A stretch of DNA of 37,843 bases from Hadesarchaea archaeon (GTDB lineage Archaea > Hadarchaeota > Hadarchaeia > Hadarchaeales > WYZ-LMO6): the NCBI GenBank assembly GCA_029259185.1, contig JAPDJF010000035.1, positions 1-37,843 on the forward strand, given 5' to 3'. Positions within the stretch are counted from its first letter, which is position 1, and the number at the start of each line of letters is the position of its first letter. The position numbers and the translations under genes are program-made. Shown piece after piece: positions 1,642 through 37,843 of the stretch. The notes beneath the pieces are model-generated. The model worked only from the letters and a program-made list of their open reading frames with translations, was not told the origin of the DNA and made no database searches.

Positions 1642-1841
1642 CTAACTCCGCACGATTTTAGGGAATAATTCTAGCTCTAGTCCGAGCGTTTCGGCAAGCG
1701 TCCTTGTCCTCTTTGGTATCTCGAAAATGATCATCCGATCTCCAACCTCAATGGCATAGATCTTGGAGAGTTCCAGAAGCGCGTCCCTCACACTAATCCG
1801 CTTGTTGACCCCGATCCCCATCAGCCGTTTGAGAAGGAGGC
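1642..1841 (-). pseudogene. Probable 3' fragment of an IS4-superfamily (IS1634-like) DDE transposase
   Basis: An open frame ending in TAG at 1642-1644, with an internal ATG at 1821. It reads ISVRDALLELSKIY..., then a GDR-type turn, FEIPKRTRTLAETLGL and a terminal FPKIVRS. That pattern resembles the C-terminal end of archaeal IS1634-like transposases as I remember them. No ribosome binding site precedes the ATG, and the frame runs straight into the inverted repeat at 1842, as expected for an interrupted gene. The matching 5' part may be the plus-strand fragment at 2595-3535. The alternative is a 59-residue free-standing protein once transcribed after ychF. The family assignment is from memory of C-terminal style, not from catalytic residues. 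Confidence 0.5.
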
Positions 1842-2084
1842 GAGTAACAGTTGCCGATAACTTCACAAATACTAATACAATTGATGGCACTAATGGAAAT
1901 AAAGGAGGCTGCAAAGTACACGAGATTACACCCCATACCCTACGGAAGTACATCGATCAAGGAGTAATAAAGGGAGTGAGAATCGGAAAACATCGTTACG
2001 TGGAGAAGGCGGAGCTGGACAGATTGATGGGAAGCCCGCTTGGGGTGGCCATTTACGCGAGGGTCTCGGCAAAGAAACAACAGG
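1842..2084 (+). repeat. Left arm of 243-bp inverted repeat (IS607 5' end)
   Basis: This segment matches the reverse complement of 3642-3884 almost perfectly; the one difference I found is A/G near 2079. It contains the upstream region and first 60 or so codons of an IS607 tnpA. Identity outside the coding part as well shows a recent duplication or gene conversion. Confidence 0.85.
1893..2084 (+). pseudogene. tnpA: IS607 serine-recombinase TnpA, truncated and frameshifted copy
   Basis: ATG at 1893 starts MEIKEAAKYTRLHP, a MerR-like DNA-binding helix-turn-helix. At CCCC (1931-1934) the protein continues only in the -1 frame (HTLRKYIDQG), then runs through RIGKHRYVEKAELDRL into the recombinase start GVAIYARVSAKKQQ, where Ser of YARVS is the expected catalytic nucleophile. 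The copy stops abruptly at 2084 with unrelated sequence. IS607 TnpA is a small serine recombinase that integrates without a defined target duplication. Nothing of the downstream recombinase core or a tnpB follows. The same frameshift is present in the inverted copy. Confidence 0.75.
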
Positions 2085-2226
2085 TTCGCTGCAACGGAGG
2101 CTACCGGAAATCCCTGGTATCCGGGGCTCTCCTTCGCGGGGAGCTTGAAAACCGACCTACCATGTATTCGGGTGGAGATATGTTAGGTTATTGGGACCAA
2201 GTGAGCAACAGGTGACTAGGTGGCCC

Positions 2227-2594: not shown

Positions 2595-3535
2595 ATGAAG
2601 AAAACCAAGGGAATTGAGATAAAGAAGGTCGGCAACAACTACTACGCATACCGAGTCACGATGGTCTGGGACAAACAGCTCAAAAGGCGGAGGAAGATTC
2701 CCCGCTACCTCGGAAAGTGGATCAACGGGAAGATAGTCCGCACCACGAAGCGCAGACTCGGCGGAGTGTATGAGTTCGGGAACATCGCCTAGTCTGGCAG
2801 GAACTGGAAGACAGTGAACTGAACAAGCTGCTCGAGACGCACTTTCCCAACGTGAGTTCTTCAACGCGCTCATCACGACGGACGAAAAGCTCGTCTACGA
2901 CATGTCTGCGATCTTCAGCTACTCCAAGAACCTCAACCTCGCAAAGCTGGTTTCAAGGCGTGACAAGTTCCTCCTCCCGCGCATAAACTTGCTCCTCGCG
3001 TTCTCGAGATTCAAACGACAACCGTGCTACGTGAGGCTTGTTCCGGGCTCCGTGATGAGCGTGAAGACTCTGCGCGTTTTCGTCGAGGAAATCCGCGATA
3101 AATCGGCTTTTCTGATTCTCGACAAGGGATTTCTCGATCGGCACAACCTCGAGGTTCTGGACGGTGCTGGCTTCAACTTCATCCTGCTCTTGCGCCGGAA
3201 CAGCAGGCTCATCGACTACCGGAAGCGGATGTCCGGATGGTTCATCTTCAGGGGCGAGCCATCAAGTGCACTTCCTATCCTCGCGGGCGGTTCTACGTCT
3301 ACCTCTTTGAAGACATCCTCTGAAAGCCACGGAGGAGAACGAGTTCTACAACCAGAAGGCGAGCGGGGCCTCCCGACCTTCCACTTGGAGTGGGCTGGAA
3401 AGATCGCCCTGATCTCAAACGTCAAGCTCAGGCCCCAAGAAGCGTTTCAACTCTACAAGTCCAGAGACGATATCAAGCGAGCCTTCCATGTGTTCAAGAA
3501 CCTGCTCCAGGCCGACACGCCCCACCTTCCTGTTC
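2595..3535 (+). pseudogene. DDE transposase (IS4 superfamily, IS1634-like), frameshifted and truncated
   Basis: The N-terminal part (2595-2792) reads NYYAYRVTMVWDKQLKRRRK and ends GGVYEFGNIA before a stop; homologous sequence resumes one frame over (LVWQELEDSELNKLLETHFP). After another shift it continues EFFNALITTDEKLVYDMSAI with FSYS, the expected first catalytic Asp. It then passes RLVPGSVMSVKTLRVFVEE and FLILDKGFLDRHNL, the second Asp. It breaks again in the 3240-3340 region and resumes with WAGKIALISN and the SRDDIKRAFHVFKNLL helix that normally carries the catalytic Glu. The gene stops being recognisable at about 3535, where the antisense IS607 tnpA begins. At least three frame disruptions make it inactive. 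The missing C-terminus may be the fragment at 1642-1841. Confidence 0.75.
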
Positions 3536-3833
3536 TCGTTCACTCCAGAAGCCACGTCTTCGATTACATCGATAACTTTCAACTTGTTTGTTACGCAGTA
3601 GCTCAGCAGCCTTTCTCTCTGCCTGTTCAGGTTCCCGGCATCCTGCTGTTTCTTTGCCGAGACCCTCGCGTAAATGGCCACCCCAAGCGGGCTTCCCATC
3701 AATCTGTCCAGCTCCGCCTTCTCCACGTAACGATGTTTTCCGATTCTCACTCCCTTTATTACTCCTTGATCGATGTACTTCCGTAGGGTATGGGGTGTAA
3801 TCTCGTGTACTTTGCAGCCTCCTTTATTTCCAT
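3536..3833 (-). pseudogene. tnpA: IS607 serine-recombinase TnpA, longer truncated copy
   Basis: Begins at ATG 3833 with the same helix-turn-helix and the same -1 frameshift at the C4 run (3792-3795) as the copy at 1893. From there it extends further: YARVS catalytic segment, NLNRQRERLLSYC, then VIEDVASGVNENR, all standard for IS607 resolvase domains. Similarity ends after NENRK near 3536, where DDE transposase sequence begins on the other strand. About half the recombinase domain and all of any tnpB are missing. The shared frameshift means it was present before the copies became an inverted repeat, or was spread by gene conversion. Confidence 0.75.
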
Positions 3834-24769: not shown

Positions 24770-26848
24770 CTATCTCCGTTTTTTTCTCCACTCGGATTTG
24801 GTCGGACATTTGGGATCCAGACACATCTTGTATGGTCTCATGCCAGGCCGATTCACTTGGATCATAGGAGTTCCGCACTCTTCACAAGTTTTGTTGAGAG
24901 TTATGATCATCCCTGAGTGGGGAAGCGGATACGAGTTCTTGCACCCCTTGCCGAAGTTCGAACATCCCGCGAAACGTTTGTGGGTGCTTCTCGAGACTAC
25001 TATCTTCAGTTCTCCTCCGCACTTCGGGCATTTTCCGAGGATCTTCTGAAGTCGCTTCGTTTTCCTGTAGACCTCGCTCAACTCCCTTCCTATTTTCAAC
25101 TCATTAGCTTTGAATTTTGATAGGATCTTGTTGAGTTCTTTCTTCGCTTTTTCGATCACCTCCTCCTTTTTGACCTTCCCAACTTGGATCGCATCCATCT
25201 TCCTCTCGAATTCGGCGGTCAGTTCTTCGCTCACGATTTCGGGACAATATTTCTGGAGGGTATTGACCACGTGGATTCCGAGCTCGGTAACGGTGATCTG
25301 GTTTCCGAAGATATACCCTCTCTCGTAAAGGTTTTGGAGGATCGGGGCCCTCGTGGCTTTGGTTCCTAGGTTGCGGGCTTCCATCTCTTTCACGATAGAT
25401 GCCGGATTGTAACGTGGTGGAGGTTGAGTCTCCTTCCTTTCGAAGAGAACTTCTTTCACCCTCAGCGTTTGACCCTCCTTAAGAGATGGCAAGATTATTT
25501 CTTCGGTTGCACCGTAGCGTCCGTAGTACGCGAGCCATCCTTCTTCCAGCACCCGTCTTCCTCTGAGATAAAAAGGTTCCTTCCCAACCTCGACCCTGAC
25601 ACGAAGACTCTCCACCAGAGCTGGGCGACCAAACACCGAGAAGAATCGTCGGACTATGAGGTCATACAGCCTCTGCTGGGGTCCGGTGAGTTTCCCGGGG
25701 TTTTCTCCCGTTGGGTATATGGCTGGGTGAGCAGGGTCGGTCTTTTTGCCCTCGTTAGGTTTCGGCTCTCGTGTGGAGAGGATTTCGTTGGATATCTCCC
25801 TATACGACTTTGAGATTTCCCCGAGTTGTTTTAGAATCTTCACGTAATCGATGGTCGGGGGAAGCTTCTGTGAACTGGTCCGAGGGTAGCTTATCAGGGC
25901 CGCTTGGTAAAGGGCTTGGGCTATTTGCTGGGTACGCATGGGAGTGTACCCAAAGCATCGGTATGCTTCCGATTGCAGACCTCCTAAGTCAAACGGGACG
26001 GGTGGCGGGCGTCTGTACTGGCGGATTTGGATCTCCCTGATTTCCGCAATCTCACTTTCGCATGCAGCCTTTGCCCTCTTCGCTTCCCCTTCGTCGAAGA
26101 AGCGCTGCTTTGCGTGTTCTGCCAAGATCTCCTTTCCCTCCACGTCTAAGAGAAGATTCAAGACCCAGAACGGCTTTGGCTTGAAACGCTTGATCTCGAG
26201 TTCTCTCTCCGTCAAGATCTTGAGGGTGGGGGTCTGCACACGTCCAGCGGAGAGTTTCGCGAACCTCTCGCTCGCTGCTTGTACGGAAGAGCTCAGAGCC
26301 TTGCTCACGTTCACCCCCCAATACCAGTCGAGAGTATGCCTCGCTATCCCAGCTTCTATGAGTTCGAAATCTAGGGTGGGCATGATCTCTTCATACGCTT
26401 TGCGTATGTCTTCAGCTGTTAGAGTGGAGAACTTCATGCGTTTGGCTTTCTTCAGGGAGTCCTCTCCGCACAGGTACTTCAAGATGCTCCATCCTATAAC
26501 GCTCCCCTCGATGTCGAAGTCCGTTGCTACTATGTAGTCGTCGCTTTCCCTTGCCAACTCCCTTATAGTTTCAACGAACACCCTGCTTTTTGCAGCCTTC
26601 TTGTCCACGGAATACGTAGGGACCCAGTCTACATCGTACACGGGGTAATCACGCATAGGTTTCACGTTTTTAAGCGTGAAGAGGTGTCCGAGGGCCGGAA
26701 CCACCACCATTTTTCTCCCATCCAGTTCCAACTCATAGTAGGGAACGTCATTGAGTTCCTGTCTCACAGCCCTCTTTCCACCTAAAGCGATCGCTATCTT
26801 AGACGCAGCCGTAGGCTTTTCGCACACGATGAGGGTTTTGTTCTTCAT
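24770..26848 (-). CDS. topA: Archaeal DNA topoisomerase I (type IA)
   Basis: About 692 residues. The Toprim domain starts KTLIVCEKPTAASKIA (catalytic Glu) and has the DFDIEG acidic triad. The active-site tyrosine is in ALISYPRTSSQ. SAGRVQTPTLK and RNLGTKATRAPI follow. At the C-terminus are zinc-binding elements CPKCGG, C-x6-C and CEECG with a final CxxxxC, ending in a basic tail. It relaxes negative supercoils; no reverse-gyrase helicase part is attached. I chose the ATG at 26848 because GGTGGT lies just upstream; an in-frame GTG at 26857 would overlap the stem of the hairpin at 26857-26898. Confidence 0.94.
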   Translation of the reverse strand: MKNKTLIVCEKPTAASKIAIALGGKRAVRQELNDVPYYELELDGRKMVVVPALGHLFTLKNVKPMRDYPVYDVDWVPTYSVDKKAAKSRVFVETIRELARESDDYIVATDFDIEGSVIGWSILKYLCGEDSLKKAKRMKFSTLTAEDIRKAYEEIMPTLDFELIEAGIARHTLDWYWGVNVSKALSSSVQAASERFAKLSAGRVQTPTLKILTERELEIKRFKPKPFWVLNLLLDVEGKEILAEHAKQRFFDEGEAKRAKAACESEIAEIREIQIRQYRRPPPVPFDLGGLQSEAYRCFGYTPMRTQQIAQALYQAALISYPRTSSQKLPPTIDYVKILKQLGEISKSYREISNEILSTREPKPNEGKKTDPAHPAIYPTGENPGKLTGPQQRLYDLIVRRFFSVFGRPALVESLRVRVEVGKEPFYLRGRRVLEEGWLAYYGRYGATEEIILPSLKEGQTLRVKEVLFERKETQPPPRYNPASIVKEMEARNLGTKATRAPILQNLYERGYIFGNQITVTELGIHVVNTLQKYCPEIVSEELTAEFERKMDAIQVGKVKKEEVIEKAKKELNKILSKFKANELKIGRELSEVYRKTKRLQKILGKCPKCGGELKIVVSRSTHKRFAGCSNFGKGCKNSYPLPHSGMIITLNKTCEECGTPMIQVNRPGMRPYKMCLDPKCPTKSEWRKKRR

Positions 26849-26856
26849 CTCGACCA

Positions 26857-27136
26857 CCGCGAGGAGACCCCGTCCGAAAGGGCGGGGGGGAACTGCGGAG
26901 GATTTTTAGGTGAAAATGCGCGTGCGATCTCTGAAAGGCAATCCCGCGGGGAGCGGCTCGGATGTGGGCCGGATGTCCGGAAGCCCGAATAGGGCTCCGG
27001 ACCGAAGCGGGCGGAGGAGTCGAGCAGGCTCGCTCTGGACGCGCCGCCGTCAACCGGCCTCGTGCGGGTCTGAGTGCGATGAGTTTCGAGCACCATGATC
27101 ACCTGCAAGTCCATTCCTTTAGGGAGGGGTAGTTGA
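26857..27136 (+). mobile_element. IS605-type remnant (PATE-like): left-end hairpin, tnpB tail/guide-RNA region, right-end hairpin
   Basis: At the left, a hairpin (26857-26898) with an outer stem CCGC/GCGG and an inner stem CCCCGTCC-GAAA-GGGCGGGG. It is the same 8-bp inner stem as at 37741-37760, where it precedes a tnpB start. An AT-rich stretch and about 190 bases of clearly GC-rich sequence follow, with a strong internal hairpin (GTCCGG...CCGGAC, around 26974-27001). One frame stays open from about 26940 to the TAG at 27130-27132, giving a tnpB-like tail ending HSFREG. At the right is a decayed right-end hairpin with TAGTTGAC (27106-27136). The core nuclease is missing, so this is an internal-deletion derivative that may still encode a guide-RNA-like transcript. 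It fills the 340-base gap between topA and the tRNA thiolase gene. Confidence 0.6.
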
Positions 27137-27189
27137 CTACCTCCATACCGTCAAGCAAATTTTTGGCTCTTCTGCCGAATATAGATTTG

Positions 27190-28062
27190 ATGAAATGTTC
27201 TAGGTGTTCTAGATGGGCGGTAGCGGAGGTAGGATGGAAGGGGAGAGCGTATTGTTCAGATCATTACCGGGAATACTTCTTGGGGCAAGTTCGGAAGGTC
27301 ATGGATAAGTTTAGGGTGGGGGGAAAGGTGTGTGTTGCCGTCTCAGGGGGGAAGGACTCTGCCGCTTGTTTAGAGGCTCTTACCCATTTCAGGGGCATCG
27401 AATTAGAGGCGTTTTTCTTAGACCTTGGTATCCCTAGGTTTTCGAGGGGGAGCTTGAAGAAAGTCTCCGAGCTTTGTGAAGAATTGGGGGTGGATCTCAC
27501 AGTGGTTTCCCTCAAGGAAAGGTGGGGAAAGTCGATCCCCGAGATATTGAAGGAGCGGAAGGGGAAAGCGTGTAGCCTCTGCGGGACGGTGAAGAGGTAC
27601 GTGATGAACGCGTATTCTTACGAGGGACGATTCGACTTTCTGGCTACCGGGCATACGCTCTCCGACGTTGTTTCGTCAACTCTCAACAACCTAGCTAATG
27701 TGTACGTGCAGGCGTTTAGGGGGGTGGGCCCGTTTTTGGAGGCCAAAGAGGAGTTCAAACTCAGCCGAAAGATCAAACCCCTGTACTACCTCACCGATGA
27801 GGAGTGCAAGCTGTACTCCGAGCTTTTAGAGCTTCCATTCTATACGGGGAAGTGTCCGTATGTTTCGGACGCTCCGACGAAGCGGATCAAGGCTTGGCTT
27901 AACAGACTGGAGCGGGACCAACCCGGTGTGCTCAGAAACTTTGCAAAATCTTTCACCCTTCTAGAATCCTCGATGGAGAATAGGGGGGAGATCTTGAAAT
28001 GCAAGAGGTGTGGGTACGCAACGACTACGAGGATTTGCAAATTCTGCAGGCTGATGAACTAG
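27190..28062 (+). CDS. ttuA: TtuA/NcsA-family tRNA 2-thiouridine synthetase
   Basis: About 290 residues from ATG 27190. An N-terminal zinc motif (KCSRCSRW, later YCSDHY) leads to the PP-loop VAVSGGKDSAACL. A cysteine in ACSLCGTVKRY and another in GKCPYVSDAP are positioned like the ligands of the catalytic 4Fe-4S cluster. The C-terminal zinc ribbon is CKRCGY and CKFC. The family thiolates uridine in tRNA (position 54 in thermophile TtuA, position 34 in NcsA/Ctu1); the choice cannot be made from sequence alone. An upstream in-frame TTG at 27133 would start inside the mobile-element end, so I prefer the ATG, which begins exactly at the zinc motif. It overlaps the cobalamin gene by four bases in convergent orientation. 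Confidence 0.88.
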   Translation: MKCSRCSRWAVAEVGWKGRAYCSDHYREYFLGQVRKVMDKFRVGGKVCVAVSGGKDSAACLEALTHFRGIELEAFFLDLGIPRFSRGSLKKVSELCEELGVDLTVVSLKERWGKSIPEILKERKGKACSLCGTVKRYVMNAYSYEGRFDFLATGHTLSDVVSSTLNNLANVYVQAFRGVGPFLEAKEEFKLSRKIKPLYYLTDEECKLYSELLELPFYTGKCPYVSDAPTKRIKAWLNRLERDQPGVLRNFAKSFTLLESSMENRGEILKCKRCGYATTTRICKFCRLMN

Positions 28063-34138: not shown

Positions 34139-35282
34139 TCAGCGAGGGCTTTGCGCAATTAGCCCCTGAGGCCAATTTTCGTGCTTGGGGGCTCGGAGTC
34201 CCCTAAGGGCCGAAAGCCCCACGCTTCCGTCCCTGGGGCAGTGGCCTAGGAACCTCTTTCCTATGTTTACGGCTCCGTTGAGGTCGGCGTTGTACTCCAG
34301 CCCACACGACGAGCATTTGAAGAAGCCTTGAGAGACCCTTCGTCCTTCGTTTCCACAGCGGTGGCACGTTCGGCTGGTGTACGCCTCGCCGGCGCACGCC
34401 ACGCGGACCCCTTCCGAGCCTTGTACTCGATGTACCTCGACAGCCGGTGGTGGGGCATCGAGTGCAAGATGCGCTTGAGCTTCCCTTTGCCCGCTTGTGG
34501 ATTCCCTTCAGGTCCCCTATCACGATGATCGAGTTTCGCTCCTTAGCTTCGCTGACGATAGCCTTCGAGATCTTGTGGCACAGGTCGTCTATTCGCCGGC
34601 TCCTTCCCGCCTACCCGATCGATCACTTTCAGCAATTTCTTTTCTCCAAGCCGCTTTCGGAGCCACGTAATGACGCCTTATCCCCCTTGCTTCCTTCCCG
34701 TAGAGCTTGGGGGAGGTGATGTTGGCCTCCTTCTGCAGCGCCACAGACGCCGCGAGAAAGCGCTCCCCCAAGTCCACTGCGGGGACGCCGGAGGGATGCA
34801 TCGGCTTGACCCTACGCTTGACCGTGAGGTGGAGGAAGAACCTCCCGTTGCGGTGGACGAGCTGTGAGTCGGAGAGCTCAACCCTACCCGAGGAGAGAAG
34901 CTCCTCGTGGGAGCGCCACATCCGCAGCGGGCACCAGATGCGCATACAAGGTTGAAACGGATACGAAAAACCTGGCGAACCTGTTTCCGGTTTCGGTGAG
35001 CTTGAATGAGTCCTTATCGATGAGGATGGGAGCCTTCCGCCTGTCCCCGGCCTTCCAAGCTAAAGCACGGCAGTAGTAGGAGGCAGCCTCGTTTGCTCTC
35101 TCAGAGTCCGGCCTCTCAAGGGCCTGGGCGCGATCCCACGCTTGGAGGTCCTCCAGAAGCTTGCGCTTGAACCGGGTGAGGCCGTAGAGTTCAGCCCTTA
35201 TCGTCTTGGAGGCCAACATCGAACGTGGTCCGTCGGAACCATTTTAAGTTTTCCGGTATTTTTGTGTAAAGCGATCAGCGAG
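34137..35282 (-). mobile_element. 1126-bp TnpB-carrying element with terminal inverted repeats and 10-bp target duplication
   Basis: The element occupies 34147-35272. The direct repeat GATCAGCGAG (34137-34146 and 35273-35282) is perfect. The ends are inverted relatives: GCTTTGCGCAATT at 34148 and, on the other strand, GCTTTACACAAAAAT ending at 35272; the short copy at 10261-10566 has the unmutated version GCTTTGCACAAAAAT at both ends. The only gene content is a broken minus-strand tnpB. IS605 and IS607 elements that normally carry tnpB have neither such inverted repeats nor 10-bp duplications, so this element was probably moved by a DDE-type transposase acting in trans. Confidence 0.8.
34150..35219 (-). 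pseudogene. tnpB: TnpB RNA-guided nuclease, frameshifted
   Basis: Starts at ATG 35219 (MLASKTIRAELYGLTRFKRK). After a frame change it continues WCPLRMWRSHEEL, the first RuvC motif in VPAVDLGERFLAASVAL, and SPKLYGKEARGIRRHYVAPK. Another change leads to DDLCHKISKAIVSEAKERN followed by IIVIGDLKGI, where the catalytic Glu of RuvC-II (normally ...EDL) is Gly. Then come SRYIEYKARK and, one frame over, the zinc ribbon TSRTCHRCGNEG...FKCSSCGLEYNADLNGA with the third RuvC Asp, and a tail. At least two or three shifts plus the Glu loss make it inactive. The C-terminal tail (LSALRGLRAPKHENWPQGL) is shared with the MITE at 10261-10566. Confidence 0.85.
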
Positions 35283-37699: not shown

Positions 37700-37729
37700 G
37701 TCGTTTGTGGTCTTCCTTCACCTTACCAC

Positions 37730-37771
37730 CACCAAGGAGGCCCCGTCCGAGAGGGCGGGGAGGAATTGGTG
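37730..37771 (+). repeat. IS605-type left-end hairpin
   Basis: Outer stem CACCAA (37730-37735) with TTGGTG (37766-37771), a purine-rich internal loop, and inner stem CCCCGTCC-GAGA-GGGCGGGG (37741-37760). The inner stem equals that at 26868-26887. It precedes the promoter and start of a tnpB gene, so it is probably the left end of that element. Confidence 0.6.
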
Positions 37772-37776
37772 AAAAC

Positions 37777-37786
37777 TTTTTATGTA
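37777..37786 (+). promoter_or_regulatory. TATA box of the terminal tnpB gene
   Basis: TTTTTATGTA lies 22-30 bases before the GTG at 37808 and just downstream of the left-end hairpin. The spacing predicts a nearly leaderless transcript. Confidence 0.45.
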
Positions 37787-37807
37787 TTGAAGGAAATAAT
37801 CCCTACC

Positions 37808-37843
37808 GTGAAGCAGACGCTCTTGGTCAGGCTGAACCCCACG
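37808..37843 (+). CDS. tnpB: TnpB (IS605-type) N-terminus, cut by the window end
   Basis: GTG at 37808 begins VKQTLLVRLNPT, the usual first strand of TnpB proteins, and the frame stays open to the last base. It lies directly after a left-end hairpin and a TATA box. Only 12 codons are visible, so catalytic integrity is unknown. Together with the tail at the window start and the remnants at 26857 and 34147 it shows repeated TnpB insertion in this region. Confidence 0.6.
   Translation, partial: MKQTLLVRLNPT

Follow-up and report, generated by a model that had tools for sequence, protein, structure and literature searches.

In the window (the whole 37,843-nt stretch of Hadesarchaea archaeon DNA analyzed here), positions 26849-27137 are, judged by their sequence, a PATE-like, internally deleted IS200/IS605 (tnpB) element of 289 bp and of non-autonomous type. 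This element abuts the start codon of topA. We consider it probable that the target of the element resembles start codons and that its tip constitutes a ready-made Shine-Dalgarno sequence, such that insertion spares translation. A Y1 transposase acting in trans would have inserted the element into the topA template strand, on the 3' side of TTCAY, thereby splitting the native leader from the topA start codon. The tip would then supply a new Shine-Dalgarno sequence at a usable spacing, translation would go on, and the element would become the 5' leader of topA. Two features would keep translation going: TTCAY is the reverse of the common start RTGAA, and the tip can base-pair with the 16S rRNA 3' end.

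What is new and testable in this reading is the position at start codons together with a built-in ribosome-binding tip. The literature that we searched, mostly outside the subscription journals, yielded no recognized description of an IS605 element that enters at start codons and brings its own Shine-Dalgarno sequence, and a term search found neither "start codon" nor "Shine-Dalgarno" in the available text of a review on MITEs. If the reading is true, a transposon could live inside essential operons and rewire the translation of many genes. Gene-dense archaeal genomes offer little space for harmless insertion, and a tip that replaces the ribosome-binding signal may explain how copies settle before working genes. 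It also follows that an intergenic "GC-rich guide-RNA candidate" may first need to be read as the leader of the neighboring gene.

Boundaries of the element and its descent from tnpB

With an E limit of 10, BLAST of 26845-27145 against its own draft genome (1.27 Mb) returned 50 matches. Two other copies, on contigs C10 (97%) and C25 (91%), were the best and covered nearly the whole query, and partial copies were found on C26, C2, C1 and others. Among 197 other genomes, matches were found in five only, each of them a right-end fragment of 21-42 nt. The interval is therefore a dispersed repeat specific to this genome. The left-tip pattern, allowing up to two mismatches, was matched in 10 of 60 other genomes, exactly in only one of them (the same-family relative G003) and with one or two mismatches in the rest; these latter matches were taken as chance because reversed-pattern controls match at a similar rate. 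The G003 element is not preceded by TTCAY.

The boundaries were defined from 18 copies with a left tip, 12 of them PATE-like or related and six of them tnpB elements; four copies that have no left tip (L006, L008, L009 and L018) were left out. The pentamer before the tip is TTCAY in 16 of these 18 copies (CTCAT in L003 and TCTTT in L017). At the unrelated sites of the six tnpB copies, TTCAC followed by CTTACCACCACC is common to all and the bases farther left differ. The right end closes in TAGTTGAC (TAGTTGAT in L006; altered in L009), so that copies end in TTGA(C), and the flanks beyond are unrelated. Moreover, the tnpB copy on C32 begins precisely where the GTAGTTCAC right end of a different IS605 element stops; that different element has eight more copies or near-copies, and other flanks follow them. 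Tips, pentamers, right ends and the C32 junction together set the element at 26849-27137 and its target TTCAT at 26844-26848. The earlier note had given 26857-27136 as the extent and had placed the remnant between topA and the tRNA thiolase: the element does lie there, but its boundaries are wider and it in fact touches the topA start codon.

On the minus strand, the target reads ATGAA, which is the topA start codon (26848-26846) plus two bases. The left tip (26849-26858, minus strand) reads GGTGGTCGAG, is Shine-Dalgarno-like and stands directly before this ATG. The left end kept from the tnpB element (26849-26919, plus strand) contains the T-rich stretch before the old tnpB start and shares 86% and 83% identity with those of two tnpB-derived elements of 920 bp. 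At the other side, TTGAC (27133-27137, plus strand) parallels the target TTCAY and is the probable right cleavage site by analogy with the IS605 family. No inverted repeat joins the tips, the longest pair being internal (19 nt, 74%); terminal inverted repeats are thus absent. A target duplication is likewise absent from the flanks of seven copies. The longest plus-strand frame inside the element encodes 62 aa, and 289 bp is too short for a transposase.

We further traced the element to the tnpB elements of the same genome. Eight contig ends (the starts of C5, C20, C26, C35 and C43 and the ends of C4, C31 and C1) carry one identical sequence that encodes a TnpB C-terminus (DHVAALNIAARAAVNRP...) and closes in CCTTCCTTTAGGGAGGGGTAGTTGAC. 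Window positions 27043-27060 and 27106-27137 are colinear with this tnpB 3' end, and both ends of the element are common with the tnpB elements of the genome, which bears out the view that this is a PATE-like IS605 remnant. The similarity to a tnpB 3' region on which the earlier note had made its interpretation depend is thus present. The remnant of the tnpB 3' end, right end included, spans 27043-27137 (plus strand; frame RAAVNRP...SFREG*) and represents a possible omega-RNA scaffold. It is also true that the nuclease core is absent, since just the final part of tnpB is left.

The multi-copy tnpB element is represented in the window by its 5' part (left end and TnpB N-terminus; 37722-37843, plus strand), which is cut by the contig end. 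The tnpB left end has six copies in the genome at 99-100% identity, one of which is the end of the window itself (37716-37843). The copy on C6 retains an open TnpB N-terminus of at least 203 aa, which scores above the cut-off for TIGR01765 and below that for guided_TnpB (NF040570). The two 920-bp relatives, on C2 and C29, have lost the C-terminal nuclease part and consist of the left end, the N-terminal part of tnpB and the 3' end; the window element retains the left end, the GC-rich core and the 3' end only. The internal deletion is identical in both 920-bp elements (L012, C2:61722-62641; L011, C29:7316-6397), both are positioned at start codons, and L011 has an open frame of 281 aa without the C-terminal nuclease half. 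From their sequences, a truncated TnpB element of this type appears to have moved as such. Another copy (L004, C26:1867-) carries the left end and core of a PATE, lengthened by about 45 bases, joined to a right end of the multi-copy tnpB type; this chimera suggests recombination between element types.

The Y1 transposase family (PF01797) yielded four matches at three places in the genome; the two main Y1 genes, both broken, are part of another type of element that lacks PATE ends, and no PATE-type ends were found in a scan of the locus of the C34 fragment. No transposase with PATE-type ends was seen in the assembly, and none of the Y1 type was encountered within the element ends, hence the assignment to a non-autonomous type. 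The element would then have moved in trans, or by means of a copy lost at contig breaks. In Haloquadratum, PATEs are described as having spread despite broken IS200-type transposases (PMC3119063).

Insertion at start codons and the Shine-Dalgarno-like tip

On the opposite strand TTCAY reads RTGAA, a start codon followed by AA. In nine of the 18 tipped copies, the RTG is the start codon of an ORF that runs away from the element. These nine start genes are topA, Tsr3/DUF367, a 142-aa membrane ORF immediately after another gene, a phosphoribosyltransferase with a GTG start, a 262-aa membrane ORF, a metallo-beta-lactamase-fold protein, a prephenate-dehydrogenase-like protein (TyrA), a MinD/ParA-like ATPase and a 125-aa ORF at the C6 tnpB copy. 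Six of the nine are backed by profiles, and those at L003, L005 and L106 have no Pfam match. For Tsr3, TyrA and the MinD-like gene, the family profiles start at the first residues. The remaining nine tips lie in intergenic DNA: the tnpB copy of the window lies 25 nt after a ribosomal-protein-like gene, and others lie 39, 30 and 21 nt after genes. The multi-copy tnpB element is at a gene start in only one of its six copies.

We estimated the background frequency of such positions from the window and six sampled stretches (153 kb in total) using a crude gene caller. RTGAA sites fell at 15 starts, at 197 intergenic positions and at 583 genic positions, which gives a fraction of 0.071 starts among intergenic and start sites; in the window with hand-listed genes, this count was two of 26. 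The caller predicted 111 genes in 153 kb and classified just 76% as coding, so intergenic sites were over-counted and the true start fraction is probably above 0.071. When limiting the copies to those with a strict TTCAY (L003 not taken as TTCAT; L186 included), eight of 16 are at starts, which corresponds to P ~5e-6 at a background of 0.071 and to P = 0.001, 0.007, 0.027 and 0.074 at backgrounds of 0.15, 0.2, 0.25 and 0.3, respectively. The TTCAT copies are at starts in six of nine cases (P = 9e-6 at 0.071; P = 0.01 at 0.25) and the TTCAC copies in two of seven (P = 0.08 at 0.071). These results tentatively suggest that an enrichment at start codons beyond chance is likely, subject to the small numbers and the crude background.

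The tip itself resembles the anti-Shine-Dalgarno region. The 3' end of the 16S rRNA of this genome is CTGCGGCTCGATCACCTCCT. The PATE tip CTCGACCACC has nine of ten bases the same as the 16S tail, and its complement GGTGGTCGAG therefore pairs with this tail over ten bases with one G:U. The predicted duplex of the PATE tip with the 16S 3' end reaches -17.3 kcal/mol, a value attained by 0.4% of 4000 random 16-mers from the window. The tips of the L004, L005/L010 and tnpB types give -14.5, -11.7 and -11.6 kcal/mol (attained by 1.8%, 6.3% and 6.6% of random 16-mers, respectively). At topA, GGTGGTCGAG is followed immediately by ATG; ten pairs are hardly all usable with so close a start codon, and the GGTG core at a spacing of six bases should be the part that matters. 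We also joined the flanks of seven copies by script into empty sites, which are not natural alleles: native pairing there amounts to -10.7, -4.4, -11.6, -7.3, -8.3, -7.6 and -3.0 kcal/mol on a 12-nt 16S tail, and the PATE tip reaches -11.8 kcal/mol on the same tail. Tip sequence and position are associated: tips with CTCGACCACCGC are at starts in six of six cases and tips with CTTGACCACCGC in none of three (1 in 84, computed by hand). All six exact occurrences of GGTGGTCGAGATGA in the genome are element tips. The 16S rRNA 3' end (L174, C25) contains GGCTCGATCACCTCCT in place of the usual GGCTGGATCACCTCCT.

The most serious rival, to which we give somewhat less than an even chance, is that this is an ordinary PATE whose distribution reflects survival. 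It would insert at any TTCAY, the copies within genes would be lost, and those at starts would survive by means of their G-rich tip. This would account for the nine tips in plain intergenic DNA, for the finding that none of the 18 lies inside an identified gene, and for the TTCAC sites, which present no clear start bias. It fits less well with the TTCAT copies, whose excess at starts persists at a background of 0.25, and with the joint occurrence of tip sequence and start position. The two readings differ only in what drives the bias, and the tip must act as a Shine-Dalgarno sequence in both. Alternatively, the mobile unit might itself include the start codon (TCATCTCGACC...) and carry an ATG to new genes, as the identity of TCATCTCGAC in six copies at different genes could indicate. 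We consider this very unlikely: IS605 elements are described as entering on the 3' side of a target of 4-5 nt (PMC7290912), TTCAY is similar to TTGAC at the right cleavage site and the copies have nothing in common farther left, the tnpB copies away from genes still have TTCAC before CTTACC, and the ATG opens conserved proteins that have the same start in relatives. That the interval is a conserved cellular structured RNA or leader of topA, such as a riboswitch, seems to us extremely improbable. It is indeed GC-rich, folds stably and lies within the topA leader, but the same sequence precedes unrelated genes, it is absent from the 197 other genomes save for the short right-end fragments in five, and Rfam offers no match. 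It is contradicted by topA of five relatives: the proteins are 67-72% identical and the upstream DNA is unrelated in all five, none of which provides a true element-free allele.

Returning to insertion at start-like targets with a ribosome-binding tip, we would extend this reading only tentatively, to an IS200/IS605 lineage that may have evolved "start-codon-safe" insertion, with the TTCAY target and the tip CTCGACCACC imitating CTCGATCACC of the 16S rRNA, the complement of the tip then being a strong Shine-Dalgarno sequence at a fixed spacing. Such a lineage could enter the leaders of essential genes such as topA, leave these genes translated, become a common leader and, if its 3' end is transcribed, provide guide RNAs in trans.

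Hairpins, GC-rich core and a possible guide RNA

The earlier note had described a hairpin at each end and a GC-rich stretch between them. The left-end hairpin, CCCCGTCC-GAAA-GGGCGGGG at 26868-26887 (plus strand), is present and is common to the tnpB left end at 37716-37780; the DNA of 26849-26901 folds at -13 kcal/mol, and seven of 200 shuffles fold at least as well. The right-end hairpin (27111-27118 with 27122-27129, plus strand) is recovered in the RNA consensus, but the right end of the window copy as single-stranded DNA folds no better than shuffles (157/200). Palindromes are thus found near both termini (26868-26887 and 27111-27129), the right one in the consensus and weak as DNA in this copy. 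The GC-rich core is equally real: 26937-27080 (plus strand) has a GC-content of 71.5% relative to 52.7% for the window, and only four overlapping windows of 144 bases reach 71.5%, all of them here. The core is conserved in sequence among PATE copies and is traceable within tnpB only downstream of about position 27030. Three hand-edited consensus frames of this core matched no NCBIfam family; one of its frames may resemble TnpB C-terminal tails.

The plus strand of 26857-27136 folds at z = -2.83 (one of 200 shuffles as good) and the minus strand at z = -1.56 (14 of 200). The GC-rich island had been taken as a classic sign of structured RNA. This argument is weak here because a related tnpB element of 920 bp also has a GC-content of about 60% and because the core is conserved in sequence and not in pairing.

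A guide-RNA role of the element is nevertheless possible on sequence grounds, since the element derives from the tnpB 3' end and the right end, as a TnpB omega-RNA (reRNA) would. A plus-strand RNA might start at the tnpB promoter kept in the element and extend past the right end into the flank TACCTCCATACCGTCAAGCA (27138-27157, plus strand), guide TnpB made elsewhere to the empty site and help the PATE to persist; we think this unlikely. The retained 3' end and right-end hairpin, the T-rich stretch in the left end and the open tnpB N-terminus of the multi-copy elements are consistent with such an RNA. The flank would be its candidate guide according to the reRNA model described for ISDra2, in which the right end gives rise to the RNA and the flank contributes its last ~16 nt (PMC8612924). 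The examined loci contained no second near match (up to three mismatches) to the first 16 bases of this candidate guide with TTCAY directly before.

The evolution of the predicted pairing does not favor this role. We aligned nine right ends, all own-genome copies of one loop class (leaving out L004, L018, the multi-copy tnpB end, G003 and the ends from other genomes), and the covariance check failed to single out the structure: its score was reached by 153 of 500 shuffles and only one of 16 pairs changed on both sides. A full alignment was made of five copies, excluding the shortened L006 and L007. Two of the five have unpaired cells in the strong core stem (columns 141-152 with 158-168), in which no pair changed on both sides, such that pairs were lost uncompensated. 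An Rfam search (cmscan of 26500-27600, E up to 5) returned no match, and the window contains no tRNA or tmRNA. In addition, the loop region is unlike that of the multi-copy tnpB, and no intact cognate tnpB is readable across the contig breaks. The proposal of a stand-alone guide RNA thus keeps its scaffold region and its potential guide but gains nothing from covariation, stem conservation or Rfam.

Related systems and other mobile remnants in the window

The window element resembles the PATEs of Haloquadratum walsbyi (PMC3119063) in lacking terminal inverted repeats, in having palindromes near its ends, in its IS605-like ends and in leaving no room for a transposase. One of them, HqIRS71, also retains part of the tnpB C-terminal coding region (PMC3119063). 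They differ in that no link of the tip with a start codon or a Shine-Dalgarno sequence is made in the portions consulted, where "start codon" occurs 0 times. A PATE-like element of Halanaerobium hydrogeniformans (PMC7290912) is similar in size and composition (~271 nt, made up of 28 nt from the left end, 58 nt from the 3' end of tnpB and a complete right end); in contrast, it is a single copy, and "start codon" again occurs 0 times in the available text. The ISDra2 TnpB/reRNA system (PMC8612924) offers a parallel in its right-end scaffold followed by flank as guide and in its target pentamer TTGAT, which adjoins the left end, whereas here the target is TTCAY, the nuclease is missing and the RNA is predicted only. 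For archaeal IS200/IS605 elements, tnpB-associated omega-RNAs are reported to be expressed (PMC12558985); a term search of the accessible text of that paper found no terms for PATEs or for truncated or non-autonomous elements.

The gene whose 5' leader contains the element, topA (24770-26848, minus strand), encodes a type IA DNA topoisomerase (Pfam PF01131, E = 2e-123, plus Toprim). Its start agrees with the protein starts in relatives, the closest being Hadesarchaea MAGs (72% protein identity) followed by Hadarchaeum-type MAGs (67%). On the other side lies a PP-loop ATPase, tRNA-thiolase-like (27190-28062, plus strand; Pfam PF01171), whose start is likely the ATG at 27190 and not the TTG at 27133 inside the element.

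Other IS605-type remnants were observed. Positions 1-129 apparently represent another tnpB 3' end, inside which the window begins; its right end (GAAGCCCCCTGCGAGAGCTGGGGGTAGTTCAT) abuts the ATG of a same-strand phosphoesterase-like gene and is a second IS605-type end at a start codon. IS605 ends also cluster on C34 (L176/L186, C34:2143-2212), where a left tip reading TTCAT then CCTGACCACAGC stands 30 bases beyond the right end of another IS605 element. In the window, a TnpB zinc-ribbon (PF07282, 57.8 bits) in a 122-aa frame at 34262-34414 (minus strand) marks a tnpB remnant near GC-rich stretches. Finally, 1763-2215 (plus strand) holds what we take by eye to be an IS607-type serine-recombinase fragment, followed at 2902-3786 (plus strand) by a frame that we presume to be transposase-like.
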